Positions 6,073 through 28,301 of a DNA stretch of 33,532 nt are shown piece after piece (position 1 is the stretch's first letter; each line of letters begins with the position of its first letter). The DNA is from Sphaerobacter sp. (GTDB lineage Bacteria; Chloroflexota; Chloroflexia; Thermomicrobiales; Thermomicrobiaceae), in NCBI RefSeq assembly GCF_019683595.1, contig NZ_JADGHZ010000024.1, positions 1-33,532 of the forward strand, given 5' to 3'. Position numbers and translations under genes: made by a program. Below the pieces are notes generated by a model. It was not told the origin of the DNA, made no database searches, and was given only the letters and a program-made list of their open reading frames with translations.

Positions 6073-7491
<1,419 letters not shown>

Positions 7492-7728
7492 GCGGGCCGC
7501 GTCCCGATGTACGCGCCAGCACGTGCCCGGGGTTGGGTGGCATGAAGGATCCCACGCCGTGGCCCGTGCCCTGGATGGGTGGTGGACGGATCTCGCGCCG
7601 CGGCGTGTGCCCGGATCGGATAGGTGACCGAAGGGTCACGCGCCGCAGCCCGTGCCCGGGGCTAAAGCCGCCGGGCACGGACCGGGTAGCGGGTACCTAA
7701 CGTAGGAGAAGCGGACCTTCTCCCTCGC
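7492..7728. repeat. Degenerate ~43-bp tandem repeat with terminal hairpin
   Basis: Between the convergent fumC and Mut7-C genes, three imperfect units follow each other, each built around GAAGGRTC...CRCGCCGYRG and ending in a CGTGCCC-like core. The cores lie near 7522, 7565, 7606 and 7651, giving spacings of 43, 41 and 45 nt. The last core opens a perfect 10-bp hairpin, CCGTGCCCGG (7650-7659) with CCGGGCACGG (7671-7680), and an inner GGCT/AGCC pairing extends it. The hairpin may act as a shared terminator. No open frame here looks coding. Confidence 0.65.
7650..7680. terminator. Hairpin between convergent fumC and Mut7-C genes
   Basis: Ten-base arms CCGTGCCCGG/CCGGGCACGG with an inner GGCT-AA-AGCC pairing. 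It is placed where transcripts from both sides should end. No T-run follows, so its terminator role is inferred from position. Confidence 0.45.
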
Positions 7729-8487
7729 TCAGGTAGCCTCCCCTTGCACCTGCTCCATCAGTTCGGCGATCAGCGCGCGCAGGCGGTCGTAGTGAGAGCC
7801 TTGCCAGTACACGCGGTCGCACTGCTCGCAGCGCCAGAACTGGTCGTATTCATGCCGGGTGCGGGGCGGAAGGCGGTCGAGCACGGCGGCCTTCGGTACC
7901 GGATGCAGCAGGCCGTTGCAGCGCAGGCACCGGCTGAAGGGTTGGATCAACCCGGCGAGGTCGAATCGCCGCACCACCTCGCGCACCTGGTCGAGCGGCG
8001 CGGCCGCGCGGACGTAGTAGCCGTGCGTTACCGCGCTGCGCTTCAGCAACCCGCGGTCCTGGGTCAGAAGGATGCGCCGCTCGTCGGCCGAGATGCGCGC
8101 CAGTGTGGCGTCGTCGTAGTCGTTGCGGTAGAGAGTATCGAAGCCGAGGAGCCGGAGGTACCCCGCCAGTTTGCCGAGGTGGGTGTCGAGGACGAAGCGC
8201 GGCTCGCGCAGCGGGCTCGGCCGGACGCGCACGAGCGGGCTGATGTCGAGCGACTCGAAGACCGGGTAGACGCTGATGAAATCCCCGGGCTGCACGACAT
8301 AATCGAAGCCGACCGATTCCCCGTTGGCGAGGAGCAGATCGACCTCGGTGTGTGGTACCCCGAGCGATTCGATCAGATCCTTGATCGAGGTGCGCCGTGC
8401 CAGCGGGTAGGTGGTGGGCACTTGACGCCGGTTGCGGGGCAGGAAATCGTTCAGTTCCGCGTAGAAGCGGACCGTGACGTGATCCAT
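7729..8487 (-). CDS. Mut7-C RNase-domain protein with N-terminal ubiquitin-like domain
   Basis: A 252-residue two-domain protein. Residues 1-85 look like the ubiquitin/MoaD-like domain that commonly precedes Mut7-C (VTVRFYAELNDFL, later QPGDFISVYPVFE). Residues 96-245 are the Mut7-C domain, a PIN-fold nuclease module: RFVLDTHLGKLAGYLRLLGFDT with D101, YDDATL (D125, D126) and LLTQDRGLL (D144) supply acidic active-site residues. A zinc-ribbon follows with CLRC (187-190) and CEQC (220-223). The expected activity is ribonuclease, but the target is unknown. ATG 8487 comes only two bases after the stop of the upstream membrane-protein gene, so the pair is probably translationally coupled; its own Shine-Dalgarno is weak. 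Confidence 0.88.
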   Translation of the reverse strand: MDHVTVRFYAELNDFLPRNRRQVPTTYPLARRTSIKDLIESLGVPHTEVDLLLANGESVGFDYVVQPGDFISVYPVFESLDISPLVRVRPSPLREPRFVLDTHLGKLAGYLRLLGFDTLYRNDYDDATLARISADERRILLTQDRGLLKRSAVTHGYYVRAAAPLDQVREVVRRFDLAGLIQPFSRCLRCNGLLHPVPKAAVLDRLPPRTRHEYDQFWRCEQCDRVYWQGSHYDRLRALIAELMEQVQGEAT

Positions 8488-8981: not shown

Positions 8982-9051
8982 CGGAACGACTCGTGCGACC
9001 TTCGCGCGGGGTAGAGCTGCGATCTGGATGCATTGAGGATGTTTTCGGACC

Positions 9052-9057
9052 AGGAGG
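9052..9057 (+). promoter_or_regulatory. Shine-Dalgarno of the GH31 gene
   Basis: AGGAGG lies 8 nt before GTG 9066 and 11 nt before ATG 9069. It places translation at one of these codons instead of the upstream ATG 9039 or TTG 9033, which have no good ribosome site. Confidence 0.6.
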
Positions 9058-9068
9058 ATGCGGCCGTG

Positions 9069-11489
9069 ATGCAAGATGTCGCAGCGGTCCAGATCCCGGA
9101 TGGGTACGAGGCGGTGGGCGCAGCCGAGGTGGTTGAGCAGGGACCCACCAGTGTTCGCCTGCGGGCCGGCACCACGACGGTCGAGGTAACGGTGCTGTCA
9201 CCGGACCTGTTTCGGGTCGGGATGTTCCCCGATAGCCGGCCGGTGGTCTACCCGGACGCCGCCATCGCCCGGCACGACTGGGCGGCGGGAGAGGTGACCA
9301 TCGCGGAAGAGTCGGGCTCACTGCGTCTAGAGACCGGTGCCGCCGCGGTGGTGATCGACCTCGATCCGCTCCGGATCGGCTTCCGCGACGGTTCCGGGCG
9401 ACCCTTCCTGGAGGACGATCCCGAGTTGGGGATGGGCGCCGCCGGGCCGGCTCCGGCGGGGGGCGTCCCTGCCGCGCTGGGCCGGCCGGTCTACCTCTAC
9501 AAGCGGCGCATCCCCGGAGAGCGCTATTTCGGCTGCGGCGAACGCACCGGCGGGCTGGAGAAGACCTCGTCGCATCAGGTCTTCTGGAACGTCGACCCGC
9601 CCGTCGGCCACAACGCGGCCATGAATGCTCTCTACACCTCGATTCCGTTCCTCGTGGCACTCCGCGAGGGCAGGGCATGGGGGCTCTTCTTCGACAACCC
9701 CTGCCGGAGCGAGTTCGACCTCGCCCGGCTCGATCCATCGCGGCTGTGCTTCAGCGCGATCGGGGGCGATCTGGTCTACTACGTCTTCAGCGGGCCCTCG
9801 CCGCGGGATGTGCTGGAGCGCTATACCGACCTGACCGGCCGCATCCCGATGCCGCCGCTCTGGGGGCTCGGCTACCACCAGAGTTCCTGGAACTACGAGA
9901 CGGCGGAGGACATCGAGGAGGTCGCGCGCGCCTTCCGCGAGCGCGATATCCCGTGCGACGCGATCTACCTTGACATCGACTACATGGACGGGTTCCGCGT
10001 TTTCACCTGGAGCCCCGAGCGATTCCCCGACCCGGACGGCTTCATCGCGCGCCTCGGCGAGCAGGGCTTCCGGGTGGTAACGATCGTCGACCCGGGCGTG
10101 CGCGTCGATGAGGCGTACCCGGTCTACACCTCCGGTCGCGATGCGGGCTACTTCTGCCTGACCCCGACGGGTGAGGAGTACCGCAACGTGGTCTGGCCTG
10201 GCCTGTGCGCCTTCCCCGACTTCAGCGATCCGAATGTCCGTGCCTGGTGGGGCGAGCAGCACGCGGCACTCCTGGACCGGGGCGTGGCCGGCATCTGGTG
10301 CGACATGAACGAGCCGACGGTCTTCATCCCGTCGCGCGGGACCCTGCCGGACGACACGGTGCATCCCGGTGGTGGGCAGGCGCGGCTGCACGCGCAGGTG
10401 CACAACCTGTACGCCAACTACATGGCCCAGGCGGCGCGCGAAGGAATGGAGCGGCTGCGGCCGGACCGCCGCCCCTTCGTCATCTCCCGCGCCGGGTACG
10501 CCGGGTTGCAGCGCTTCGCCCTGCAGTGGACCGGCGACAACTCGGCCTGGTGGGAACACCTTTGGATGGCGATGCCGCAGCTCCAGAACATGGGGCTATC
10601 CGGTATGGCCTGGGCCGGGGTCGATATCGGTGGCTTCTCCGGCGACGCGACGGGCGAGCTGCTGGCACGTTGGACGGAGTTCGGCATCTTCCAGCCGTAT
10701 TGCCGCAATCACAGCGAGAAGGGAACGGCTCGTCAGGAGCCGTGGGCGTTCGGCGAGCCGTACGAGTCGATCATTCGGAACATGCTCAAGCTCCGCCAGC
10801 GGCTGCTCCCCTACCTGTACACGCTGTTCGAAGAGTGCCATCGCACCGGCGCACCCATCCTGCGCCCGCTGCTGTTCGAGTATCCGGAGGACGAGGCGAC
10901 GTACGCCGCTGACGATGAGTTCCTGCTGGGTGACCGGATCCTCGTGGCCCCGATCACACGCCATGGCCAATCCTACCGCCACGTCTACCTGCCCGCCGGC
11001 TCCTGGTTCCACCTGTGGCGGGGCGAGCGCTACGAGGGACCGGCCGACGTGCTGATCCACGCGCCTCTGGGGGAGCCGGCGGTCTTCGTGCGGGGCGACG
11101 CGCCGGTGCCGCTCTGGCCCGCCATGAACTACGTCGGCGAGCGGCCCGCCGACCCGCTGACCTTGCTGATCTATCCCGCCGGCGGGAGGGGCGCGCTGGA
11201 GCTGTACGAGGACGCCGGGGACGGCTATGCCTACCTGGACGGAGAGTACGCCCGCACGCGCGTTACCTGCCGCTCGGACGATGCCGGAATCACGGTCGAG
11301 ATCGGCGCGCGTGCGGGCAACTTCGTGCCGGAGCGCACCCGCGTCATGGTCGAGTTGCGCGGGCTGGAGACTGCGCCGTCGCAGGTGCTGGTCGAAGGGG
11401 AGCCGGCCGAGACGACCTTCGACGACGGCGTCGTGACCATAGCCCTCGATGCGAGCGCCGAGGCGCGGACGATCGAAGTCCGCCGCTGA
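9069..11489 (+). CDS. Alpha-glucosidase, glycoside hydrolase family 31
   Basis: An 806-residue GH31 enzyme, a retaining exo-acting alpha-glycosidase. The catalytic barrel shows the family motifs: YLDIDYMDGFRVFTW, the nucleophile D412 in GIWCDMNEP, the acid/base D490 in WTGDNSAWWEHL, and GVDIGGFSG after it. The N-terminal part (about 1-230) is the usual beta-sandwich with YFGCGERTGGLEK, and the C-terminus has the beta-domains that follow the barrel. No signal peptide is visible, so it probably acts inside the cell on imported malto-oligosaccharides or related alpha-glucosides. GTG 9066 is an almost equal start choice. GH31 also includes alpha-xylosidases and sulfoquinovosidases, so exact specificity is open. 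No sugar transporter or regulator lies beside it. Confidence 0.92.
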   Translation: MQDVAAVQIPDGYEAVGAAEVVEQGPTSVRLRAGTTTVEVTVLSPDLFRVGMFPDSRPVVYPDAAIARHDWAAGEVTIAEESGSLRLETGAAAVVIDLDPLRIGFRDGSGRPFLEDDPELGMGAAGPAPAGGVPAALGRPVYLYKRRIPGERYFGCGERTGGLEKTSSHQVFWNVDPPVGHNAAMNALYTSIPFLVALREGRAWGLFFDNPCRSEFDLARLDPSRLCFSAIGGDLVYYVFSGPSPRDVLERYTDLTGRIPMPPLWGLGYHQSSWNYETAEDIEEVARAFRERDIPCDAIYLDIDYMDGFRVFTWSPERFPDPDGFIARLGEQGFRVVTIVDPGVRVDEAYPVYTSGRDAGYFCLTPTGEEYRNVVWPGLCAFPDFSDPNVRAWWGEQHAALLDRGVAGIWCDMNEPTVFIPSRGTLPDDTVHPGGGQARLHAQVHNLYANYMAQAAREGMERLRPDRRPFVISRAGYAGLQRFALQWTGDNSAWWEHLWMAMPQLQNMGLSGMAWAGVDIGGFSGDATGELLARWTEFGIFQPYCRNHSEKGTARQEPWAFGEPYESIIRNMLKLRQRLLPYLYTLFEECHRTGAPILRPLLFEYPEDEATYAADDEFLLGDRILVAPITRHGQSYRHVYLPAGSWFHLWRGERYEGPADVLIHAPLGEPAVFVRGDAPVPLWPAMNYVGERPADPLTLLIYPAGGRGALELYEDAGDGYAYLDGEYARTRVTCRSDDAGITVEIGARAGNFVPERTRVMVELRGLETAPSQVLVEGEPAETTFDDGVVTIALDASAEARTIEVRR

Positions 11490-12946: not shown

Positions 12947-14302
12947 ATGCAGCACGAGTCGCAGCCACTCATGAACCACAGGCTCAGTCGCCGGTCGATG
13001 TTGCTCGGTCTCGGGACGACCGTGCTGGGTGGTCTGCTTGCCGCCTGCGGTGGCGGCGAGTCGGAGGAGACGCCCGCCGCAGCCGCTGAGACGCCGACCC
13101 AGGCTGCCGCTGCGCAGACGCCCACGACGGCCGCGGCCAGCCCGACCGCCGCTGCCAGCCCGACTGCCGGCACCCCGTCGGCGTCCTCGTCCTCCGGAGA
13201 ACCTGTCCGGGTCGGGGTCATTGGCACCATCTCGGGCGTCTACTCCACCCTCGGGCAGAACATGGTCGACGGGATGAAGCTCTACCTCTCGGAGATCCAG
13301 AACCAGGCCGGGGGGCGCCCGATCGAGCTCATCGTCGAGGACTCGGCGGGTGATCCGGATCAGGCACTCGCCAAAGCGCGGCAGCTCGTCGAGCGCGACC
13401 AGGTGCACCTCATCGCCGGGGTGACGCTGAGCAATGAGGCGGCCGCCGTCCGCGACTACATTGTCGAGGCGCAGGTTCCGTGGATCATCGGCAACGCCGG
13501 GTTGCCGGGGCTGACGCGTGACCCCAACATGCGGAGCCCATACATCTTCCGCGTCTCCTTCGCCAACGGGCAGTACGAGGCGCCCTTCGGTGACTATGCC
13601 TACAACACCCTTGGTTACAAGCGAGTCGTCGTCACGGCGCTCGACTACTCGGCCGGCCACGACAAGGCGGGTGCCTTCAGCCAGCGGTTCCAGCAGGCAG
13701 GCGGTGAGATCGTCGGCGAGGTCTACGCGCCGATGGACACGCAGGACTACGGCCCGTACCTGCAGCGCATCCAGCAGATGGACGCCGACGCCGTCTGGGC
13801 TTTCTATTCCGGCGGCGATGCGGTACGCTTTGTGTTGCAGTACACGGAGTTCGGGCTCAAGGACCAGTTCCCGCTCATCGGCGCCGGTGACACCGTGGAT
13901 GAGAATATTCTCAACCAGCAGGGCGACGCTGCCCTCGACGTTGTCAGCACCCTGCACTACAGCCCACTGTACGATTCGCCGGAGAACAAGGCCTTCGTCG
14001 AGGCGTTCCAGTCGACCTACAACGCCCAGGCGAACCAGTTTGCCTACCAGGGCTACCTGGCTGCCCGGGTCATCGCCGAGGCCTTGAACGCCACGGATGG
14101 GAATGTGGAGGATAAGCAGGCGTTCCTCGAGGCGCTGAAGGGGGTTCACTTCACCGGGCCGACCGGCGAGTTCCGGTTCCACCCCGAGTCCCAAGGACCG
14201 GTGATCACGGTGCTGGTGCGGCGCGTCGAGAAGCTTCCTGACGGCAGCTACGGGAACGTCGTGATCGATGCGATTGGGAATGTCGATGACCTGTCGTTCT
14301 AG
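12947..14302 (+). CDS. LIV-type ABC transporter substrate-binding lipoprotein (first copy)
   Basis: A 451-residue receptor of the branched-chain amino acid/amide type (Peripla_BP_6 fold). The N-terminus combines a twin-arginine motif (SRRSMLLG, R15-R16) with a lipobox ending at C34 (GGLLAAC), so it is probably exported folded and lipid-anchored outside the membrane. A linker rich in A, T, P and S (about 40-85) separates anchor and receptor. The mature domain starts RVGVIGTISGVYSTLG; the internal FYSGGDAVRF and GAGDTVDE are shared with the paralogue at 22375. It heads the Liv genes, 24 nt before livH. Such receptors bind amino acids, amides, urea or aromatic acids; here the neighbouring enzymes suggest a non-amino-acid ligand. 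Start chosen behind GGAGGGG (spacer about 11). Confidence 0.9.
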   Translation: MQHESQPLMNHRLSRRSMLLGLGTTVLGGLLAACGGGESEETPAAAAETPTQAAAAQTPTTAAASPTAAASPTAGTPSASSSSGEPVRVGVIGTISGVYSTLGQNMVDGMKLYLSEIQNQAGGRPIELIVEDSAGDPDQALAKARQLVERDQVHLIAGVTLSNEAAAVRDYIVEAQVPWIIGNAGLPGLTRDPNMRSPYIFRVSFANGQYEAPFGDYAYNTLGYKRVVVTALDYSAGHDKAGAFSQRFQQAGGEIVGEVYAPMDTQDYGPYLQRIQQMDADAVWAFYSGGDAVRFVLQYTEFGLKDQFPLIGAGDTVDENILNQQGDAALDVVSTLHYSPLYDSPENKAFVEAFQSTYNAQANQFAYQGYLAARVIAEALNATDGNVEDKQAFLEALKGVHFTGPTGEFRFHPESQGPVITVLVRRVEKLPDGSYGNVVIDAIGNVDDLSF

Positions 14303-17939: not shown

Positions 17940-18025
17940 GCTGATTGTTACGCCGGCAGATAAAGCGAACTCATTCGTCAACAGCCAGATCCTCGCTGGA
18001 CAGGCGTTTGAGTCCAGACTGGGAC

Positions 18026-18033
18026 GGAGGTGA
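18026..18033 (+). promoter_or_regulatory. Strong Shine-Dalgarno supporting a TTG start
   Basis: GGAGGTGA is close to a full complement of the 16S tail and lies 4 nt before TTG 18038, which supports this unusual start codon over the in-frame ATG far upstream at 17945. Confidence 0.7.
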
Positions 18034-18037
18034 GGCG

Positions 18038-18859
18038 TTGGCCGGTACAGGAGGGACGACCTCGACCGGCGCCACCGGTACTCAGTTCGCGTTGCGCGTG
18101 GACGCCGTGTCCAAGCGCTTCCGCCAGGGGCAGCGTGAACTGCTGGCGCTCGACAATGTGAGTTTTGACATCGAGGTCGGGCGCTTCCTCGTCATCGTTG
18201 GCCCGAGCGGCTGCGGCAAGACGACGCTCCTGCGCATCCTCGCCGGGTTGGAGCGCCAGGACGAGGGACAGATCTGGATCCGTCCCAACGCCGACGGACA
18301 CCCGGCAGCCGCCATGGTCTTTCAGGAGCAGTCGGTCTTCCCCTGGATGACGGTGCGGGACAACGTCGCCTACGGGCTGGCGCTCCGCGGTGTGGGACGA
18401 CGGGAGCGCTTCCGCGAGGCCGAGCGCTGGATCCGGAGCGTCGGGCTGGAGGGATTCGAGCGTGCGTACCCGCACCAGCTCTCCGGTGGAATGAAACAGC
18501 GCGTCAGTATCGCGCGGGCGTTCGCGGTCGATCCCGACGTGCTGCTCATGGACGAGCCCTTCTCCGCGCTCGACGAGCAGACCCGCACGATCCTGCAGCA
18601 GGAAGTGTCATCGCTCTCCGAGCAGCAGCACAAGACGGTGATCTTTGTCACCCACAGCATCGACGAGGCGATCACGCTGGGCGATGAGGTGCTGGTCATG
18701 ACCCACCGGCCGGGTCGCGTGAAGCGCCTGATCTCCATTCCCTTCGCGCGCCCGCGCGACGTGGTCGGCGTGCGCGCGAACCCGCGCTACGGCGAACTCT
18801 ACGAGGAGATCTGGCAGCTCATCGCGGAGGAAGTCCAGCAGGGGCCGAGGGAGGAATGA
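18038..18859 (+). CDS. NitT/TauT-type ABC transporter ATPase (SsuB/TauB-like)
   Basis: A 273-residue ATPase of the nitrate/sulfonate/taurine/pyrimidine importer group. After a T/G-rich start (about 1-15) come Walker A GPSGCGKTT, Q-loop VFQEQSVFPWMTVRDNV, signature LSGGMKQRVSIARA, Walker B VLLMDEPFSALD and the switch histidine in VTHSIDEAI. The set matches this subfamily, in which Q-loop FPWMTV is characteristic. It is one nucleotide from the permease gene that follows. Two binding-protein genes complete the transporter. The ligand could be a sulfonate, pyrimidine, nitrate, phthalate or another small organic anion. Confidence 0.92.
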   Translation: MAGTGGTTSTGATGTQFALRVDAVSKRFRQGQRELLALDNVSFDIEVGRFLVIVGPSGCGKTTLLRILAGLERQDEGQIWIRPNADGHPAAAMVFQEQSVFPWMTVRDNVAYGLALRGVGRRERFREAERWIRSVGLEGFERAYPHQLSGGMKQRVSIARAFAVDPDVLLMDEPFSALDEQTRTILQQEVSSLSEQQHKTVIFVTHSIDEAITLGDEVLVMTHRPGRVKRLISIPFARPRDVVGVRANPRYGELYEEIWQLIAEEVQQGPREE

Positions 18860-18860
18860 C

Positions 18861-19694
18861 GTGTCTGAGCAAGGTGTGAGCGTACCGAGCGAAGCCCTTC
18901 CCGCCGGGCGGGCGTTGCGCCGCCCGCGCGCAGGGGCCAAAACCGAGGTCGCCGTCCAGCTCCTGTCGCCTCTGGCGCTCCTCGCTGTCTGGGAGATCAC
19001 CGCGCGAGCCGGCTACATCGACCAGCGGTTCTATCCGGCTCCCAGTTCGATCGTCCAGGCGTTCTGGGACGCAGTGACGACCGGCGTCTTGCTGCACCAT
19101 CTCAAGATCACGCTCGGGCGGCTCGCGCTCGGCACCCTGATCGGTGGGGTACCGGCCGTGCTGCTCGGGCTGGCGATGGGACTCTCGCGCTGGCTGCGGC
19201 TGGCGCTCGACCCCATCATCGCCGCGACCTATCCCCTGCCCAAGAGCGCCCTCTTCCCATTGCTGCTGCTCATCTTCGGCCTCGGTGAGGGGTCGAAAGT
19301 GGCCATGGTTGCCATCGGGGTCTTCTACCTCGCGGTCACCAACTCCATGGAGGGCGTGCTGGCCATCAACCCCGTCTATCTCGACGTCGCCAAGACCTTC
19401 GGCGCGCGGCGACTCGACGTCGTCCGCACCGTGGCGCTCCCCGGGGCGCTGCCGCTGGTGCTTGCGGGTCTTCGGCTCGGCGTTGGGACCGGGCTCATCC
19501 TGGGGGTGCTGGCCGAGATGCTCGGGGCGCGCGACGGCCTGGGGTACCTCTTGTGGAGCGCCTGGCAGACCTTCTCGGTGTCGTCGCTCTACGCGGTGCT
19601 CTTCGTGACCGCGGTGCTCGGGTTCGTGAGCGTCAAAGTGGTGGACATCCTGCGCCGGTGGCTCGTGCCCTGGCAGTCCGGCTCGCGGAACTGA
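18861..19694 (+). CDS. NitT/TauT-type ABC transporter permease (SsuC/TauC-like)
   Basis: A 277-residue binding-protein-dependent permease. A hydrophilic, basic N-terminus (about 1-30) precedes the first helix (LLSPLALLAVWEITARAGY), and RFYPAPSSIVQAFWD is typical of SsuC-like permeases. The EAA loop reads AKTFGARRLDVVRTVALPGALP. Several further hydrophobic segments follow. GTG 18861 is used, one nucleotide after the ATPase stop, with AGGGAGGA just upstream. It probably works as a homodimer with the ATPase encoded before it. A hairpin and then the first receptor gene follow. Confidence 0.92.
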   Translation: MSEQGVSVPSEALPAGRALRRPRAGAKTEVAVQLLSPLALLAVWEITARAGYIDQRFYPAPSSIVQAFWDAVTTGVLLHHLKITLGRLALGTLIGGVPAVLLGLAMGLSRWLRLALDPIIAATYPLPKSALFPLLLLIFGLGEGSKVAMVAIGVFYLAVTNSMEGVLAINPVYLDVAKTFGARRLDVVRTVALPGALPLVLAGLRLGVGTGLILGVLAEMLGARDGLGYLLWSAWQTFSVSSLYAVLFVTAVLGFVSVKVVDILRRWLVPWQSGSRN

Positions 19695-19755
19695 TCGCCG
19701 CCGGCGGGAGCTTTCGTCCCACGCCACGGCTACCGGTGCCGGAGTGTGGTGTCGG

Positions 19756-19781
19756 ATGCGGCTGGAACCGGCCAGCCGCAT
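19756..19781 (+). other. Intergenic hairpin before the first NMT1-like receptor
   Basis: ATGCGGCTGG (19756-19765) and CCAGCCGCAT (19772-19781) form a perfect 10-bp stem with a 6-nt loop, 31 nt before the receptor start. No T-run follows. Such hairpins often raise or separate receptor expression from the rest of a transporter message by protecting RNA ends; that role is inferred. Confidence 0.5.
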
Positions 19782-19812
19782 GGTGCCCGGCAGGGTTAGT
19801 GAGGAGGGGAGC

Positions 19813-21009
19813 ATGACCCAAGACTCGAAGTTGACGCGGCGCTCGTTCGTCCGGGGTGCGGCGCTCCTCGCGGCCGCCCCGCTGACGACGCTCCTGGCGG
19901 CGTGCGGCGGTGGGGAAGCCGAGCCAACCGAGCAGTCGGCCCAGGCACCGACGACCGCCCCCTCGCCGACGAGCGCGAGCGGCGGGACTGCAGCGGGCCC
20001 GGCCGCGTCCCCGGCGGCGTCTCCGGCAGCCGAGGCGCCGACTCCGACGGTCGTGACCGGCCAGGGCGCCAAGACGCCGTTTAAGTTCGCCACGGCACGA
20101 CAGATCGCCTCCCTCACCCCGTACATCGCCCTGGAGAAGGGGTACTTTGACGAGGAGGGGCTCGAGGTCGAGCTCGCCGAGATCCAGACGCTCGGCCAGA
20201 TGGTGCCGTTCCTGGGGACCGGTGAGATCCTGGCGGCCGGCGGCGCGCTCTCCGCCGCACTGTTTAACGCCATCCGCCAGGGCATCGAGATGAAGGTGGT
20301 GGCGTCACGCACGGCCCTGACCCGCGGCTTCACCTTCCACGGCGTCTACGCCGCAAAGTCGCGCTACGACAGCGGCGAGATCCGCTCGATCGCCGACCTG
20401 CGGGGGCGGACCATCGCCAATACCAACGTTGAGGGCCTGGTTGCCTGGGAGAATGCCCGGATCCTCCAGAGCGCGGGATTGACGCTCAACGACGTCGAGC
20501 TGGTCGGCATGACCCCGCCCGATATGCCGACCGCCCTCGCCAACGGGGCCGTCGATGCCGCGCTCTTGATCGAGCCGTACGTGGTGATGACGAAGCGGCT
20601 GGGAGCCGGGGAGCCCCTGGTCGAGGGAGATGGAATCCACGACCTGCTCGGCCAGGATGTCCCGATCGGTGTGGTGCTGGCGTCGCCGGCGCTCCTGGAG
20701 GACCGCGACCTCGCCATTCGCTTCCTCCGCGCGCACCTCAAGGCCGCGCGCTTCTACAACGAGGCGCTGGTAGATCCGGCCACCAAGAGCGAGGTGATCG
20801 ACATCGCGCTCAAGTACCTGCCCGGCCAGGATCGCTCGCTGTACGAAGAGATGATCTGGCCAGGCATTCCCGAGGACGGCGGCTTCAACCCTGAGTTCGT
20901 CGATGAACTCCAGCAGTTCATGATCGAGCGAGGGGAGATTGAATCCGCGCTGCCGGTCGAGGACGTAGTAGATCTGAGCCTGCTCGAGGACGCGCGGAAC
21001 TCGCTGTGA
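19813..21009 (+). CDS. NMT1/THI5-like ABC transporter substrate-binding lipoprotein (first copy)
   Basis: A 398-residue receptor for the NitT/TauT-type importer. It has a twin-arginine motif (TRRSFVRG, R9-R10) and a lipobox with C31 (TLLAAC), then a T/P/S/A-rich linker (about 38-85). The receptor domain starts KFATARQIASLTPYIALEKGYFDEEGLEVEL, the pattern of the NMT1/THI5 and SsuA family in which the bound ligand is caught by residues after the first strand. SIADLRGRTIAN and PPDMPTALANGAVDAALLIEPY are further family landmarks. ATG 19813 follows GAGGAGGGGAGC. It is paralogous to the next gene, with matching order and motifs throughout. Confidence 0.9.
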   Translation: MTQDSKLTRRSFVRGAALLAAAPLTTLLAACGGGEAEPTEQSAQAPTTAPSPTSASGGTAAGPAASPAASPAAEAPTPTVVTGQGAKTPFKFATARQIASLTPYIALEKGYFDEEGLEVELAEIQTLGQMVPFLGTGEILAAGGALSAALFNAIRQGIEMKVVASRTALTRGFTFHGVYAAKSRYDSGEIRSIADLRGRTIANTNVEGLVAWENARILQSAGLTLNDVELVGMTPPDMPTALANGAVDAALLIEPYVVMTKRLGAGEPLVEGDGIHDLLGQDVPIGVVLASPALLEDRDLAIRFLRAHLKAARFYNEALVDPATKSEVIDIALKYLPGQDRSLYEEMIWPGIPEDGGFNPEFVDELQQFMIERGEIESALPVEDVVDLSLLEDARNSL

Positions 21010-21109: not shown

Positions 21110-22276
21110 ATGCCCAGACGACTCACTCGACGTTCGTTTCTCGCCCTGTGGGGTGGCGCGCTTGCCGGGGGCCTGCTCGCGGCGTGCGGCGGTGAGGATT
21201 CGACCCAGGAGGCCGCGGCATCGACTCCGACGCCGGCGTCGACGCCGACCCAGGCGGCCTCGAGTAGCGACGCAAGCCCGGCCCCGGCGACCACTCCGAC
21301 GCCGGTTGCGACTCCGACGGTCCAGCAGGCGACGCGCACGCTCCGCGTCACGACGATCGGCGCGGTGTCGGACGCCGGCATCTTCATCGCCATGGAGCAG
21401 GGCTACTTCCAGGAGGTCGGCATCGAGATCGAGCTCGACACGGCTGCGCGCACGGCGGGGGAGACGATCCCGCTGCTGAGCACGCAGCAGTTGGACATCT
21501 CCGGCGGCTCCTTCTCCGCCGCGCTGCTCAACGCGGTGGCACAGGGGGTCCGCGTTCCCGCGGTCGCCACCAAGGGGTCTCTGAGCCGCGGGTTCGGCTT
21601 CCACGCCATCGGCGTGCCCAAGCACCGCTACGACGACGGGACCATCACCACCGTGGCCGATCTCCGGGGCAAGAAGTTCGCCGTCACCAACGACTCGGGC
21701 ATCGACATCCTGGAGGCGAAACGGGTGCTGGAGAGTGGCGGCCTGACCCTTGACGACGTCGAGATCGTGGTCATGCGCGTCCCGGACATGCCGGCTGCGC
21801 TCCAGAACGAGGCGATCCATGCCGCGGAGCTGGTCGAGCCGACGGCCGCGATCGCCATCGATCAGCTCGGCGTCGCCGCGCCACTCCTCCGGGGCGACTC
21901 CCTGGTCGACGTGATCGGGGACGACTTCCCCATCGCCGGGATCTTCTTCGGGCCGCACATCGCGGAGGATCGCGACCTGGCGGTGCGCTGGATGGTCGCC
22001 TACCTCCGGGGGTTGCAGTTCTACAACGACGGCTTGCAGGACCCGGAGCAGCGGAAGCGAGTCATCGAGATCCTCAAGCTGTACACGCCCGTCCAGGATG
22101 ATGCGCTGTTCGACCGGATGGTCTGGCCCGGCCTGCGAGCGGACGGACGGTTCGACACGGCGCCCTTGGAGCAGGTGCAGGAGATTTGGCTTGCGCGCGG
22201 GGCGATCCAGCAGACGGTACCGGTGGACCAACTGGTGGACTTCAGCTACATCGAGGAGGCAATGCAGCAGCTCTAA
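21110..22276 (+). CDS. NMT1/THI5-like ABC transporter substrate-binding lipoprotein (second copy)
   Basis: A 388-residue paralogue of the preceding receptor. Signal: twin arginine TRRSFLAL (R7-R8) and lipobox C26 (GGLLAAC); linker rich in T, P, S and A (about 33-72). The receptor domain shares with the first copy the patterns GYFQEVGIEIEL, GFGFHAIGVPKHRYDDG, VADLRGKKFAVTN, GLTLDDVEIV, PDMPAAL and MVWPGLRADGRF. The two differ most at the start of the domain (DAGIFIAMEQ versus LTPYIALEK), where family members contact ligand, so they may bind different compounds while sharing one permease. ATG 21110 has GGGGAGGAG upstream. Confidence 0.9.
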   Translation: MPRRLTRRSFLALWGGALAGGLLAACGGEDSTQEAAASTPTPASTPTQAASSSDASPAPATTPTPVATPTVQQATRTLRVTTIGAVSDAGIFIAMEQGYFQEVGIEIELDTAARTAGETIPLLSTQQLDISGGSFSAALLNAVAQGVRVPAVATKGSLSRGFGFHAIGVPKHRYDDGTITTVADLRGKKFAVTNDSGIDILEAKRVLESGGLTLDDVEIVVMRVPDMPAALQNEAIHAAELVEPTAAIAIDQLGVAAPLLRGDSLVDVIGDDFPIAGIFFGPHIAEDRDLAVRWMVAYLRGLQFYNDGLQDPEQRKRVIEILKLYTPVQDDALFDRMVWPGLRADGRFDTAPLEQVQEIWLARGAIQQTVPVDQLVDFSYIEEAMQQL

Positions 22277-23791: not shown

Positions 23792-24511
23792 ATGCAGCCG
23801 GACACGAGTCTGCGGGTGACGATCCCGGCAGAGCCAGAGGCGATCGAGGTCGACCTGAAACGCACCGCGGCCATCGTGGTCGACATGCAAAACGCCTTTC
23901 TTTCGAAGGGCGGGATGCTGGACATTGCCGGGCATGACATCTCGCGCGCCGACGAGACCATCGCCGCGGCCAGTCGGACGCTGTCGGCCCTGCGTCGTGC
24001 CGGGTCGACGGTGATTTACCTGCAGATGGGCTATACACCGGACCTGTCCAACGCCGGTGGCCCACACTCGCCCAACCCGCACAAGGAGCTCGCCCTGTGC
24101 CTGATGGCGGCGCAGCCGGAGCTGCGCGGCAAGCTCCTCATCTGGGGCGACTGGGACGCAGAGATCGTCGACGCGCTGAAGCCGGAGCCGGGCGACTTGG
24201 TCGTGCGCAAGTCGCGCTACAGCGGCTTCGCGGGGACCAATCTGGATGCGCTGCTCCGGACGCGCGGGATCACGCACGTCGTCGTGATGGGCGTGGCCAC
24301 CAACGTCTGTGTGGAGTCAACCGTGCGCGACGCGTTCTTCCACGAGTACTGGCCGGTGGTCGTCACGGATGCGACCTATCAGGCCGGCCCGCCGGAGATC
24401 CAGGAGGCCAGCCTCTTCAATATCCGCACCTTCTTCGGCTGGGTCACGACCTCGCACGATGTCGCGCGGGCGGTCGATCAGGCACTCGCAGCCGGTGCGC
24501 GTGCGGGGTGA
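23792..24511 (+). CDS. RutB-like cysteine hydrolase (isochorismatase fold)
   Basis: A 239-residue cytoplasmic amidase of the isochorismatase-like superfamily. The catalytic triad is visible: D31 (IVVDMQNAF), K140 (VRKSRYSGF) and C173 (GVATNVCVEST). Beyond the triad it resembles E. coli RutB as I remember it, with matching AGGPxSPNxHK, GxWDxxxVDxL, RYSGF, ATNVCVESTxRDxFFxEY and DATxQAGP patterns. RutB hydrolyses ureidoacrylate (or its peroxy form) in uracil breakdown, releasing carbamate. No other rut genes are in the window, so here the substrate may be a different ureido, carbamoyl or amide compound. ATG 23792 follows GGAGGG. It lies between receptor and amidohydrolase genes. Confidence 0.85.
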   Translation: MQPDTSLRVTIPAEPEAIEVDLKRTAAIVVDMQNAFLSKGGMLDIAGHDISRADETIAAASRTLSALRRAGSTVIYLQMGYTPDLSNAGGPHSPNPHKELALCLMAAQPELRGKLLIWGDWDAEIVDALKPEPGDLVVRKSRYSGFAGTNLDALLRTRGITHVVVMGVATNVCVESTVRDAFFHEYWPVVVTDATYQAGPPEIQEASLFNIRTFFGWVTTSHDVARAVDQALAAGARAG

Positions 24512-24637: not shown

Positions 24638-25660
24638 GTGCCGCTGAAGATCGATGTCTTTTGTCACTTCTTCCCGACGCGCTACTGGCAGGCGATGCTG
24701 GATCAGGCCGCGGGCTCAGCCTATATGCAGAAGCGCGTGCGGGGGATTGCCGCGCTCCATGATCTGGACGAGCGTCTCCGGCTGATGGAGCCACATGAGA
24801 ACTACGTGCAGGTGTTGTCCCTGCCTGGACCGCCGATCGAGGCGTTCTGCCCGCCGGAGAAGGCTCCGGAGCTGGCTCGGATCGGCAACGAGGGGATGGC
24901 GGAGCTGGTCGACCGCTATCCCGACCGCTTCGTCGGCTTCATCGCCGGGCTCCCGATGAACAACCCGGATGCGGCCGTGCGTGAGGCGGAACACGCCATC
25001 ACGCAACTCGGTGCCACCGGAGTCCAGATCTACACCAACGTGAACGGCGCGCCGCTGGATCAGGACGTCTATCTGCCGCTCTTTGCCCTCATGGCGGAGC
25101 ACGACCTCCCGATCTGGGTGCACCCGTCGCGCGAGCCCGACGTGCCCGACTACCGCACGGAGGAGCGCTCCAAGTACGACATCTGGTGGGCCTTCGGCTG
25201 GCCCTACGAGACGAGCGTCTTCATGGCGCGGATGGTCTTCTGGGGCCTGTTCGACCGCTTCCCGAACATCAAGATCATTACCCACCACATGGGCGGGATG
25301 ATCCCGTACTTCGAGGGGCGCGTCGGCTTCGGGCTCGACTCGCTGGGCCGGCGCACCGACGAGGCGGAGGACCTGGAGGCGCGACAGCGGCTCCAGCACC
25401 GGCCATACGACTACTTCCGCCGCTTCTACGCCGACACGGCGCTCTTCGGGGCGCTCCCGGCAACCGAGTGTGGCCTGGCATTCTTCGGCACCGAGCGCGT
25501 CTTGTTCGCCTCCGACTTCCCCTTCGACCCGAAGGGTGGGGCGCTGTTCATCGGCGAGACCGTGCGCGTGGTGGAGAACATGACGGCATCGGCGGAGGAC
25601 AAGCAGGCCATCTTCGAGGGCAACGCCCGGCGGCTGCTGCGGTTGCGCCTCCCCGACTAG
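24638..25660 (+). CDS. Amidohydrolase-family protein (ACMSD-like decarboxylase/hydrolase)
   Basis: A 340-residue metal-dependent TIM-barrel protein of the amidohydrolase_2 / ACMSD group, which includes aminocarboxymuconate-semialdehyde, resorcylate and 5-carboxyvanillate decarboxylases and some hydrolases. Barrel landmarks: VHPSRE (H162), ITHHMGGMIPYFEGR (H216, H217) and ASDFPFDPKGG (D293). The N-terminal metal motif, usually HxH, reads DVFCHFFP, so F8 stands in place of the first histidine while H10 is kept. This may be a subfamily trait; I recall similar DVFCH starts in annotated amidohydrolases but cannot confirm. GTG 24638 is preceded by AAGGGAG at a long spacing. It likely acts on the ring or ring-cleavage product of the imported compound; this is inference. 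Confidence 0.82.
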   Translation: MPLKIDVFCHFFPTRYWQAMLDQAAGSAYMQKRVRGIAALHDLDERLRLMEPHENYVQVLSLPGPPIEAFCPPEKAPELARIGNEGMAELVDRYPDRFVGFIAGLPMNNPDAAVREAEHAITQLGATGVQIYTNVNGAPLDQDVYLPLFALMAEHDLPIWVHPSREPDVPDYRTEERSKYDIWWAFGWPYETSVFMARMVFWGLFDRFPNIKIITHHMGGMIPYFEGRVGFGLDSLGRRTDEAEDLEARQRLQHRPYDYFRRFYADTALFGALPATECGLAFFGTERVLFASDFPFDPKGGALFIGETVRVVENMTASAEDKQAIFEGNARRLLRLRLPD

Positions 25661-25957
25661 CATGGTCGCGCGGGCAGATGCGGGCGTGCCGTGCCGGGGG
25701 TCCTTGACCGTGGTCGGCTTGCGACCTACACTGGAGCGGGCCGAGACCGGGGATGCGTTGGGACGGGGCGTTCCGCCCCGCCCTGCCGTGCGCGACGCGC
25801 GTAGGATGCGTCGTTTGCGCCGGGATCACGGTGGCTGTGCCGCGCCGGCGGCTGCCGTCGCCCGCCGCCCAGGGGCAGCGGGCCGCGCGGCATGCGTCGG
25901 TGGGCCGTCGCCGTGGGTGCGGCCAACGGGCAGGTAGTACGGAAAGGACGGTCAGCC
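25661..25957. other. Intergenic leader of the LigM-like gene
   Basis: This 297-nt gap contains a strong promoter at 25704-25732 and then a leader of about 220 nt. The leader includes a GC-rich hairpin near 25763-25779 (CGGGGCG-TTC-CGCCCCG) and other G/C-rich inverted segments. No coding frame is credible. Confidence 0.5.
25704..25732 (+). promoter_or_regulatory. Promoter of the LigM-like demethylase gene
   Basis: TTGACC (25704-25709) and TACACT (25727-25732) are separated by exactly 17 nt. It would start transcription near 25739 and express the demethylase independently of the transporter genes. Confidence 0.6.
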
Positions 25958-27358
25958 ATGAGTTCCGCTGCCAAGCCGCGGAGCTTGCAGGACATCGTCG
26001 ACAGTGTGCCCAATATCGCCCAGTACCTGTACAACAACCAGACCGGCCCCCGGATCTACCCGGTGGTGCAGCCTGAGTACACCAACTGGCGCGATGAGCA
26101 GCGGTCCTGGCGGGAGACGGCCTGTCTGTTCGACCTCTCCTACCACATGACCGACCTGTATGTGAGCGGGCCGGATGCCTTCCGCCTGCTGGAGCGGCTG
26201 TCGATCAACAGCTTCAAGGGGTTCAAGCCGGGGCGGGCCAAGCAGATGGTGGCCTGCAGCCCGGCCGGCTACGTCATCGGCGACGTGATCCTGTTCTACC
26301 TGGACGAGGAGTCGTTCAACCTCGTCGGGCGCCCCTCGGTGCACAACTGGGTGCAGTTCCACGCCGAGACAGGCGGCTACGATGTCAAGCTCGAGCGCGA
26401 TGAGTGGGCGGTGGGCGACCCCAACCGGCGGCGCAAGGTGTTCCGCTTCCAGGTGCAGGGGCCGAACGCCACGCAGATCCTGGAGAAGCTGAACGGTGGG
26501 CCACTGCCCGACGTCAAGTTCTTCCACATGGGCTGGATCACCATCGCCGGGCACCAGGTGCGGATGTTGCACCACGGGATGTCCGGGGTGGCCGGCGCCG
26601 AGCTGATCGGGCCGTTCGAGCACGGGCCGGAGGTCAAGGCGGCGATCGTCGAGGCGGGTAAGGAGTTCGGCCTGCGCCAGGTCGGCTCGCGGGCGTACGC
26701 CACCAACACGCTGGAGTCGGGCTGGATCCCCTCACCGCTGCCGGCGGTGTACACGGGCGAGGAGCTGCGGGCCTACCGCGAGTGGCTGCCGGCGGCCAGC
26801 TACGAGGGGGGCGGCGCCATCGGCGGGAGCTTCGTCTCGGACAACATCGAGGATTACTACCTCGACCCGTGGGAGTTGGGCTACGGGCCGATCCTCAAGT
26901 TCGACCACGACTTCATCGGGCGCGAAGCGCTGGAGGAGATGGCCAAGCAGCCGCACCGCAAGAAGGTGACGCTGGCCTGGAACGGCGAGGATGTCGCCAA
27001 GGTCTTCGCCTCGCTGTTCGGCAAGGACACGCCGGGCAAGCACATCGACCTGCCGCTGTCGCAGTACGCCACCTGGATGTACGACAAGGTGGTGAACGCG
27101 CAGGGCGAGACGGTGGGCATCTCCACCTTCTGCGGCTATAGCTGGAACGAGCGGTCGATGCTGTCGCTGGCGATGCTGGACGAGGCGTATGCCGAGCCGG
27201 GCACCGAGGTGACGCTGATCTGGGGCGAGCCGGACGGTGGCTCGCGCAAGCCGTCGATCGAGCCGCACCAGCAGTTCGAGATTCGGGCCACGGTCGGGCC
27301 GGTGCCGTATGCCGAGCCGGCGCGGCAGTACCGCGCGCAATTGCAGCAGCGCCGCTAG
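25958..27358 (+). CDS. LigM/DesA-like tetrahydrofolate-dependent O-demethylase (GcvT fold)
   Basis: A 466-residue aminomethyltransferase-fold protein. It resembles LigM and DesA of Sphingobium, which move the methyl group of vanillate, 3-O-methylgallate or syringate to tetrahydrofolate, giving 5-methyl-THF and the phenol. Recognised features, from memory: YPVVQPEYTNWRDEQRSWRE near 40-59, LFDLSYHMTDLYVSGPDA, KQMVACSPAGYVIGD, GRPSVHNWVQFHAETGG, VQGPNA, QVGSRAYATNTLESGWIPSP near 247-266, and the C-terminal barrel with FDHDFIGREAL. Glycine-cleavage GcvT is much shorter, and this lacks its typical start. N- or S-demethylation is an alternative. ATG 25958 has AAAGGAC upstream. A terminator follows; metF faces it, fitting recycling of the methyl group. 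Confidence 0.85.
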   Translation: MSSAAKPRSLQDIVDSVPNIAQYLYNNQTGPRIYPVVQPEYTNWRDEQRSWRETACLFDLSYHMTDLYVSGPDAFRLLERLSINSFKGFKPGRAKQMVACSPAGYVIGDVILFYLDEESFNLVGRPSVHNWVQFHAETGGYDVKLERDEWAVGDPNRRRKVFRFQVQGPNATQILEKLNGGPLPDVKFFHMGWITIAGHQVRMLHHGMSGVAGAELIGPFEHGPEVKAAIVEAGKEFGLRQVGSRAYATNTLESGWIPSPLPAVYTGEELRAYREWLPAASYEGGGAIGGSFVSDNIEDYYLDPWELGYGPILKFDHDFIGREALEEMAKQPHRKKVTLAWNGEDVAKVFASLFGKDTPGKHIDLPLSQYATWMYDKVVNAQGETVGISTFCGYSWNERSMLSLAMLDEAYAEPGTEVTLIWGEPDGGSRKPSIEPHQQFEIRATVGPVPYAEPARQYRAQLQQRR

Positions 27359-27446: not shown

Positions 27447-28301
27447 CTATGCCGAACCGTCGCCCGGACACCCGAGCTCGCGCTGCTTTTCCTGCACCCA
27501 CTTGACGGTGGATTCCACCGCGTTGAACGTGCTCCAGTGGACGCCGATGATTCGGTCGCGAGCGGCGTCGGCCGACTCGGCCAACTCCCCGATGGTCGCC
27601 CATGGGTCGTAGCGCGCGCCGCCGGTCAGCACGAACCGCGCGAGACCCCGCTGCTTCTCGAGGTAGCGGAGCGACGCACCGATCCCCAGCCGCATGGCGA
27701 TCCGCACCAGCCGGTCGAAGCGGATCGTGCCCGGAAGACAGAGGTAGAGGGGCAGCGTGAAACCGGCCGCGGTCGCGTCATTGATCCACTTCAGCATCGC
27801 CTCCGGGTTGAAACTGATCTGCATGATGGCGTAGGAGGCATAGCGCTGCTTCGCCAGGAGCGCGGACGTGAGCGCGTCGTCGGAGATCTTCGGGTGCCCC
27901 TCCGGGTAGGCGCCGATGCCGATGGTGCTCGGGCGCTGCGGCAGCGTCGCGAGTGACTCCAGCAGGTCCAGCGCGCTCTCGAACTCCCCGACCGGTCGAT
28001 CCGGGTCGCCGCCGATGACGAACACCTCATCGATGCCGAGCTCCATCAATCGGGCGATGATGCGCTCAAGCTGGGACGGCCCGGCGATACCCCGTGCCGT
28101 GAGATGCGGCACGACCCGAACCCCGCGCCGGTGCAGATCCTCCGTGAGCGCGAGCGTGGCGTCGATGCCGAGGTCCGGCGAGACCGTCACGGTTACCTTC
28201 ATCGAGGATGGCACGAGCGGGGCGAGCTTCTCGGCCGTAATCGTTGGGAGCACCTCGAGCCGCGAGTCCCCCAAGACGCGACACGCCCACGAGTTGTCCA
28301 T
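27447..28301 (-). CDS. Methylenetetrahydrofolate reductase family protein
   Basis: A 284-residue MetF-type TIM-barrel flavoprotein that interconverts 5,10-methylene-THF and 5-methyl-THF. Features include LEVLPTITAEKLAPLV near the start (position of the catalytic glutamate region), PHLTARGI (equivalent of the VxHLT motif), EVFVIGGDPDRPVGEF (equivalent of the RGDxP loop holding the catalytic aspartate) and IGIGAYPEGHPK (equivalent of gVAxYPExH). All point to MetF, though the GGDPD loop differs from the classic RGD. ATG 28301 has GGAGGGGAG upstream. Facing the LigM-like gene across a terminator, it probably oxidises the 5-methyl-THF made there; a biosynthetic MetF role is also possible. It has its own promoter at 28437-28466. 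Confidence 0.87.
   Translation of the reverse strand: MDNSWACRVLGDSRLEVLPTITAEKLAPLVPSSMKVTVTVSPDLGIDATLALTEDLHRRGVRVVPHLTARGIAGPSQLERIIARLMELGIDEVFVIGGDPDRPVGEFESALDLLESLATLPQRPSTIGIGAYPEGHPKISDDALTSALLAKQRYASYAIMQISFNPEAMLKWINDATAAGFTLPLYLCLPGTIRFDRLVRIAMRLGIGASLRYLEKQRGLARFVLTGGARYDPWATIGELAESADAARDRIIGVHWSTFNAVESTVKWVQEKQRELGCPGDGSA

Follow-up and report, generated by a model that had tools for sequence, protein, structure and literature searches.

The protein encoded at positions 24638–25660 of the analysed stretch of Sphaerobacter sp. DNA (33,532 nucleotides, hereafter the window) was found to belong to a clade of PF04909-type proteins that carry no metal-ligand residue at the first position of the strand-1 HxH pair and in which an additional histidine, H216, stands just before the catalytic histidine of strand 6 in every member compared. 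The explanation that we favour, with a probability of roughly 0.42, is that this protein is a working mononuclear-metal decarboxylase of the ACMSD-like (PF04909) group whose ligand has moved to H216. On this large and old branch one of the metal-binding histidines would have left strand 1 and come to stand where strand 6 ends, beside the catalytic histidine, giving a site composed of His10, His162, His216 and Asp293. The HxH pair serves as a signature for recognising PF04909-type enzymes, and a clade extending over several phyla has lost half of it. If the explanation is true, the metal site was rewired without loss of the fold, with the other site residues kept and one invariant histidine added.

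The product of the open reading frame matched PF04909 (Amidohydro_2) at 130.6 bits, exceeding the gathering score of 26.4, and had no match among the NCBIfam models at an E-value of 0.001. An AGGGAG stretch lies 5' of the GTG start, and the in-frame codons that precede the start are TAG, TGG and TTC. Because the stop lies only three codons ahead, no longer start and no hidden HxH exist, which disposes of the concern, raised with the original prediction, that the start had been misread and a full motif lay upstream. The codons GAT GTC TTT TGT CAC encode D6, V7, F8, C9 and H10, with TTT at 24659–24661, and the N-terminal motif reads KIDVFCHFFP.

Alignment to human ACMSD paired F8 with H6, H10 with H8, H162 with H174, H217 with H224, R228 with R235 and D293 with D291, and placed H216 opposite Ala223. 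The original prediction that the first histidine of HxH is missing, while H10, H162, H216/H217 and D293 remain, is thus borne out. It had listed H216 and H217 together, and both are present; it passed without comment over H216, the invariant extra histidine of the clade and the likely replacement. R46 was considered as the catalytic arginine of ACMSD and dropped, as it aligns with human R59; the catalytic human R47 has no aligned equivalent in the window protein, which leaves a substrate-binding arginine of ACMSD unplaced and counts against the favoured explanation. The positions of these residues and of the genes discussed below are listed in Table 1.

Table 1. Coordinates of the residues and genes considered in this analysis; positions are those of the window unless a locus is named.
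Feature	Location	Strand	Remarks
ACMSD-like PF04909 protein, 340 aa	24638..25660	+	GTG start; PF04909 130.6 bits
Strand-1 motif D6-V7-F8-C9-H10	24653..24667	+	F8 at the place of the first metal His; H10 kept
H162, strand-5 metal ligand position	25121..25123	+	= human ACMSD H174; 60/60 clade rows
W188, clade-diagnostic Trp of the FGWPYE motif	25199..25201	+	60/60 in clade, 4% outside
H216-H217	25283..25288	+	H217 = catalytic strand-6 His (human ACMSD H224); H216 = clade-specific extra His, proposed replacement ligand
R228	25319..25321	+	= human ACMSD R235 / P. fluorescens R239; 60/60 clade rows
D293, strand-8 ligand and catalytic Asp position	25514..25516	+	= human ACMSD D291
ABC transporter ATPase, NMT1/SsuABC-type importer	17945..18859	+	~81% identical relatives upstream of the sister-genus orthologous amidohydrolase
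Permease of NMT1/SsuABC-type importer (BPD_transp_1)	18861..19694	+	
NMT1/THI5-like substrate-binding protein	19744..21009	+	
Second NMT1/THI5-like substrate-binding protein	21110..22276	+	
Isochorismatase-family amidohydrolase	23792..24511	+	RutB-like, 290 bits, below RutB cut-off 378
LigM/DesA-like THF-dependent aromatic O-demethylase	25892..27358	+	NF047885 631 bits, cut-off 580
Haloarchaeal Gly8 genes (DFG-A/G-H)	L054:8641-9579, L186:4001-4963, L187:1468-2442, L188:1495-2451		L188 = Natronococcus, Asp216
HxY-type PF04909-like genes	L113:11035-11874 (-), L116:4973-5812, L121:13554-14681 (-), L122:2455-3336, L123:4871-5770		

The first position is known to vary among characterised relatives. 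It is His in ACMSD and IDCase and Glu in LigW and in the resorcylate, salicylate and 2,3-dihydroxybenzoate decarboxylases (PMC7894528 Table 1; PMC8187880), and each of the eight enzymes in Table 1 of PMC7894528 has a ligand there. PMC11650718 gives His9, His11, His177 and Asp294 as the zinc ligands of P. fluorescens ACMSD and assigns the activation of the metal-bound water to His228. The window protein shares with ACMSD the fold, the second histidine of HxH, the strand-5 His (H162), the strand-6 His (H217), the strand-8 Asp (D293) and the equivalent of Arg235. It is not ACMSD proper, however, since the strand-1 HxH is replaced by F8-C9-H10; ACMSD retains the first histidine (His6 in human, His9 in P. 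fluorescens) and, in human, has Ala before the strand-6 His (Ala223-His224), where the window protein has H216-H217. The LigW, gamma-resorcylate and 2,3-dihydroxybenzoate decarboxylases likewise share the fold, the strand-5 His, the strand-8 Asp and a plastic first position, but the LigW type is defined by Glu at that position, where the window protein has Phe8. On strand 6, LigW and the resorcylate enzyme read GHMGE (Gly before the His, Glu after), whereas the window protein reads HHMGG. Ligand swaps are already known in the amidohydrolase superfamily, so the window protein counts as a variant, within PF04909, of a known kind of enzyme.

To place the protein among its relatives, a tree was built from a main alignment of 148 rows after removal of columns 8 and 216. 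The His216 clade comprised 60 of these rows with an SH-aLRT of 99; they represent 59 distinct proteins, the window's own protein being counted twice. The window protein carries the full set of residues that defines the clade, namely no ligand residue at position 8 together with H10, H162, W188, H216-H217 and D293. Members were found in Chloroflexota (the phylum of the window), Armatimonadota, Rokubacteria, Pseudomonadota, haloarchaea and Lactobacillus (PDB 3IJ6). Among 150 genomes of the class, orthologues 75–96% identical were present in five genomes besides that of the window, and all of them, one 96% identical (G029) and four from the sister genus, keep DVFCH. A scan of named genomes gave nine loci, seven at 43–73% identity (Armatimonadota, Rokubacteria, an uncultured bacterium and an Immundisolibacteraceae bin), all seven with F or Y at position 8, and two distant ones (28–29%). 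Homologues of at least 43% identity in these two scans thus have F or Y at position 8 in 12/12 cases, whereas the distant relatives (36% identity or less) with a readable N-terminal motif have HxH (five distant rows gave no motif), a pattern that goes beyond chance. The window's genome itself holds one further relative, 34% identical, which bears HxH.

Plasmid sequences were also searched; 160 records matched, and 10 places were retrieved and then 6 more. These 16 of 160 matches added Rhizobiales, Rhodobacterales, haloarchaea and a Thermus plasmid copy that is split in two, with a transposase gene annotated across the gap. Membership was also assigned by score, a minimum of 245 bits against profile A1 being required, where the first HxH row scores 217.6. 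By this measure a clade member was present in 26/251 sampled genomes of the window's phylum (the window's own genome included), in 14/43 of Armatimonadota, the phylum of locus L032, and in 1/299 of the phylum of locus L038. The clade is therefore broad but patchy in distribution. The missing His8, which the original prediction had correctly recognised as an anomaly without seeing that it is subfamily-wide and already present in 3IJ6 (Tyr9, His205-His206), is the shared mark of an uncharacterised subfamily and not a private loss. Wherever annotation could be read, the clade proteins were labelled only "amidohydrolase family protein", and W188 together with H216-H217 provides simple sequence marks that define this group. 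Of 10 scanned members of the clade, and a single relative from haloarchaea, none matched an NCBIfam model (E-values of 0.001 and 0.00001), and no named function for the clade was found; nor was any paper on the clade or on 3IJ6 seen in a literature collection lacking most subscription journals.

Comparisons within the clade showed that position 8 drifts while the rest of the site is fixed. Residue 8 is F in 43, Y in 8, A in 6, W in 2 and S in 1 of the 60 rows, and Phe8 as a functional requirement is ruled out by the Y, W, A and S found in its place. Six rows from the Armatimonadota sample (L162–L166 and L169) have Ala for the first histidine (DVAAH and similar) together with HH on strand 6, and are the clearest sign that an aromatic residue at position 8 is not required. 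The neighbouring Cys9, with which the original prediction suggested that the metal site might be rebuilt, does not bear this role, because residue 9 is Cys in only 15 of the 60 rows (Ala in 16, Pro in 12, Thr in 7, with others besides). D6, H10, H162, H216, H217, R228, D266 and D293 are each found in 60/60 rows, and D171 (53/53) and Y172 (52/52) are fixed in the rows where they are present. The drift at position 8 against the complete fixation at 216 suggests that 216 matters and 8 does not.

An extended alignment of 154 rows (the 148 and six more) showed how the two positions are paired. Among the 68 rows without H, E or D at position 8, 64 have His216, one has Asp216 and three have neither (L137, L142 and L035, which show odd or truncated N-termini or Glu217). 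His216 is absent from all 86 rows with H, E or D at position 8, one of which carries Asp216 (L152, in which the first His is present); in the HxH and ExH rows, position 216 is usually Gly, Ala, Thr, Ser or Pro. As the main clade is one lineage, its 61 rows (the 60 and L189) count as one event and not as 61, and the drift at 8 against a fixed 216 within the clade is, in our reading of the alignment, a better argument than the row counts.

In a haloarchaeal group of four (the second copy in L054, L186, L187 and L188) position 8 is Gly and position 216 is His, except in L188, where it is Asp, another metal-capable residue. The group falls apart from the main clade in the trees, on a long branch, and the arrangement may have arisen in it independently. 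Placing them with the main clade was not rejected (p-AU 0.304, on 49 of the 154 rows, chosen by hand), and His8 may have been lost and His216 gained only once, in one historical event. We therefore do not claim that the two changes occurred together repeatedly, since the main clade is one event and the independence of the haloarchaeal group is unsupported at this p-AU.

An AlphaFold2 model of the window protein, made from alignment A2 (59 rows), had a pLDDT of 93.8 and a pTM of 0.93 and showed the ACMSD-like barrel fold (Foldseek 2.5e-26 to 3IJ6 and 1.1e-21 to human ACMSD). The closest structure was 3IJ6, with Z 41.0 and an rmsd of 1.8 over 302 residues; LigW scored Z 37.8 and human ACMSD 37.0. 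3IJ6, an uncharacterised metal-dependent hydrolase of Lactobacillus acidophilus, was also the best PDB match by sequence (4.5e-47; 2.7e-68 by profile). It belongs to the same clade, with the motif KIDAYAHILP and, in chain-sequence numbering, Tyr9 at the place of the first His, His11, His161, His205-His206 and Asp263; yet it is only 32–35% identical to the window protein and is without most of the segment around window D171–E175. In the model, strand 6 comprises residues 213–215, H216 follows directly at its C-terminal end, and residues 217–219 form a short helix. Neighbouring residues of a strand usually face opposite sides, and the side chain of H217 would be expected to point inward, which would argue against H216 reaching the metal.

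This geometry bears on a different reading, in which H10, H162 and D293 hold the metal, water or substrate occupies the vacancy, and H216 acts in the second shell or on the substrate. Because H216 adjoins H217 and strand neighbours tend to face opposite ways, we consider this arrangement a serious possibility, somewhat less probable than the relocated ligand. Three protein ligands are listed in PMC7894528 Table 1 for LigW, salicylate decarboxylase and 2,3-dihydroxybenzoate decarboxylase, the last with Glu8, His167 and Asp293. Those enzymes retain a carboxylate at position 8, however, whereas here position 8 is not kept and the extra histidine is present in 60/60 rows; the Asp that takes position 216 in one haloarchaeal relative also argues for a residue able to bind metal. 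Catalysis without any metal, with the remaining His and Asp residues acting as acid-base groups, has a precedent in PF04909 enzymes described as working without a cofactor, LigI being cited (PMC10811679), but seems improbable here, as H10, H162, H217 and D293, the other metal-site residues of ACMSD, are invariant in 60/60 rows, which catalysis of that kind would not require.

Still less probable, in our view, is a dinuclear oxygenase of the AibH2/PtmU3 type (ARO), in which H216 and H217 would serve a second metal. AibH2, PtmU3 and SfbO, the amidohydrolase-related dinuclear oxygenases, do share the PF04909 fold, AibH1H2 is among the structural neighbours of the model (Z 28.0), and a gene for a Rieske protein lies near one clade gene (L189). 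The metal ligands of AibH2 include Asp25 and Glu265 (PMC7782822), and its strand-1 Asp and this Glu, which falls at position 217 in similar rows, help to bind two metals; neither is found in the window protein. All four alignment rows with Asp8 carry Glu217, whereas the window protein has F8 and H217, so by these residues it falls outside the AibH2 type and the ARO group. That the gene is a non-functional or decaying copy, or a sequencing error, is hardly credible: one relative (L037) has an internal stop and the copy on Thermus thermophilus plasmid pAK1c (L051) is split in two (7450–8013 and 8983–9705), but DVFCH recurs in the 96% identical and the four sister-genus orthologues, a non-ligand stands at position 8 in 60/60 clade rows, and invariance elsewhere is strong.

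The favoured mononuclear-metal explanation can be stated as a sequence of steps. The first His of HxH would have been lost across the whole subfamily, and the added H216 would most likely have taken over its role, completing a set of four protein ligands with H10, H162 and D293 and leaving position 8 free to drift. H217 would activate the metal-bound water and R228 would bind the substrate carboxylate; most likely, the enzyme would decarboxylate non-oxidatively an aromatic acid, or the product of its ring cleavage, that Sphaerobacter sp. imports through the neighbouring NMT1-type ABC transporter. The sequence, the clade, its invariant residues, the predicted fold and the gene neighbours are observed here, whereas metal content, ligation by H216, decarboxylation and substrate class are inferred. 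The window protein is very probably an active metalloenzyme, and the odds that H216 is a direct metal ligand fall a little short of even.

The window has, in order, the NMT1 importer, a branched-chain-type binding protein, the isochorismatase-family gene, the gene under study and the LigM/DesA-like gene. Relatives of the importer lie directly upstream in the sister genus, with one or two NMT1 proteins at three loci (L042, L044 and L045) and with ATPase and permease only, and no NMT1 protein, at a fourth (L043); NMT1 binding proteins also occur near clade genes at L052, L053, L111, L113 and L116. By clustering of open reading frames, relatives of the importer permease were present in 11/38 neighbourhoods, a raw count that includes long, possibly merged frames at L034 and L035. 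The isochorismatase-family and LigM-like genes adjoin the clade gene only in the window's genus among the loci compared, and we dropped both as core partners because neither is found in the stretches around the sister-genus orthologues. A short methylenetetrahydrofolate-reductase-like protein (27447–28301, minus strand; PF02219, 46.6 bits) is encoded convergently with the LigM-like demethylase, whose methyl-THF it could recycle. Binding proteins of three kinds of ABC importer (two branched-chain-type, two NMT1 and one SBP_bac_8) lie within 20 kb at 12947–33364, with an IlvD/Edd dehydratase at the end, and this region looks like a catabolic island.

Catabolic genes were also observed near other members of the clade. 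The sister-genus locus L042 has a catechol 2,3-dioxygenase above the NCBIfam cut-off, with a tautomerase-like protein nearby, and an HpaB-type monooxygenase above the Pfam but below the NCBIfam cut-off. A TPP-dependent enzyme at L034 and a UbiD at L036 both exceeded NCBIfam cut-offs. Catabolic genes, including pcaGH, gentisate-type genes, FAD monooxygenases, 4-hydroxybenzoate 3-monooxygenase, xanthine dehydrogenase and aldehyde dehydrogenase, were present in all six annotated plasmid neighbourhoods among the first ten (L046, L048, L049, L050, L051 and L054), and an aldehyde dehydrogenase gene is directly 3' of the clade gene in 3/10 plasmid loci (L049, L054 and L055). The same kinds of partner genes are described for a published cluster whose OpaD is an ACMSD-like enzyme that decarboxylates a carboxymuconate semialdehyde (PMC6362003). 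We see an even chance that the window protein is a decarboxylase of aromatic-derived acids. Since the gene neighbours vary between lineages, one common substrate for the clade is unlikely.

At five loci of the window's phylum, a second PF04909-like gene was observed within about 5 kb of the His216-clade gene. Its product has the opposite defect, with His-x-Tyr on strand 1 and "MIDVG", that is, Asp at the place of the strand-5 His. It is conceivable that this protein and the His216-clade protein form a paired complex like AibH1H2. An AMP-binding ligase gene is present at 5/5 of these loci and an SDR gene at 4/5.
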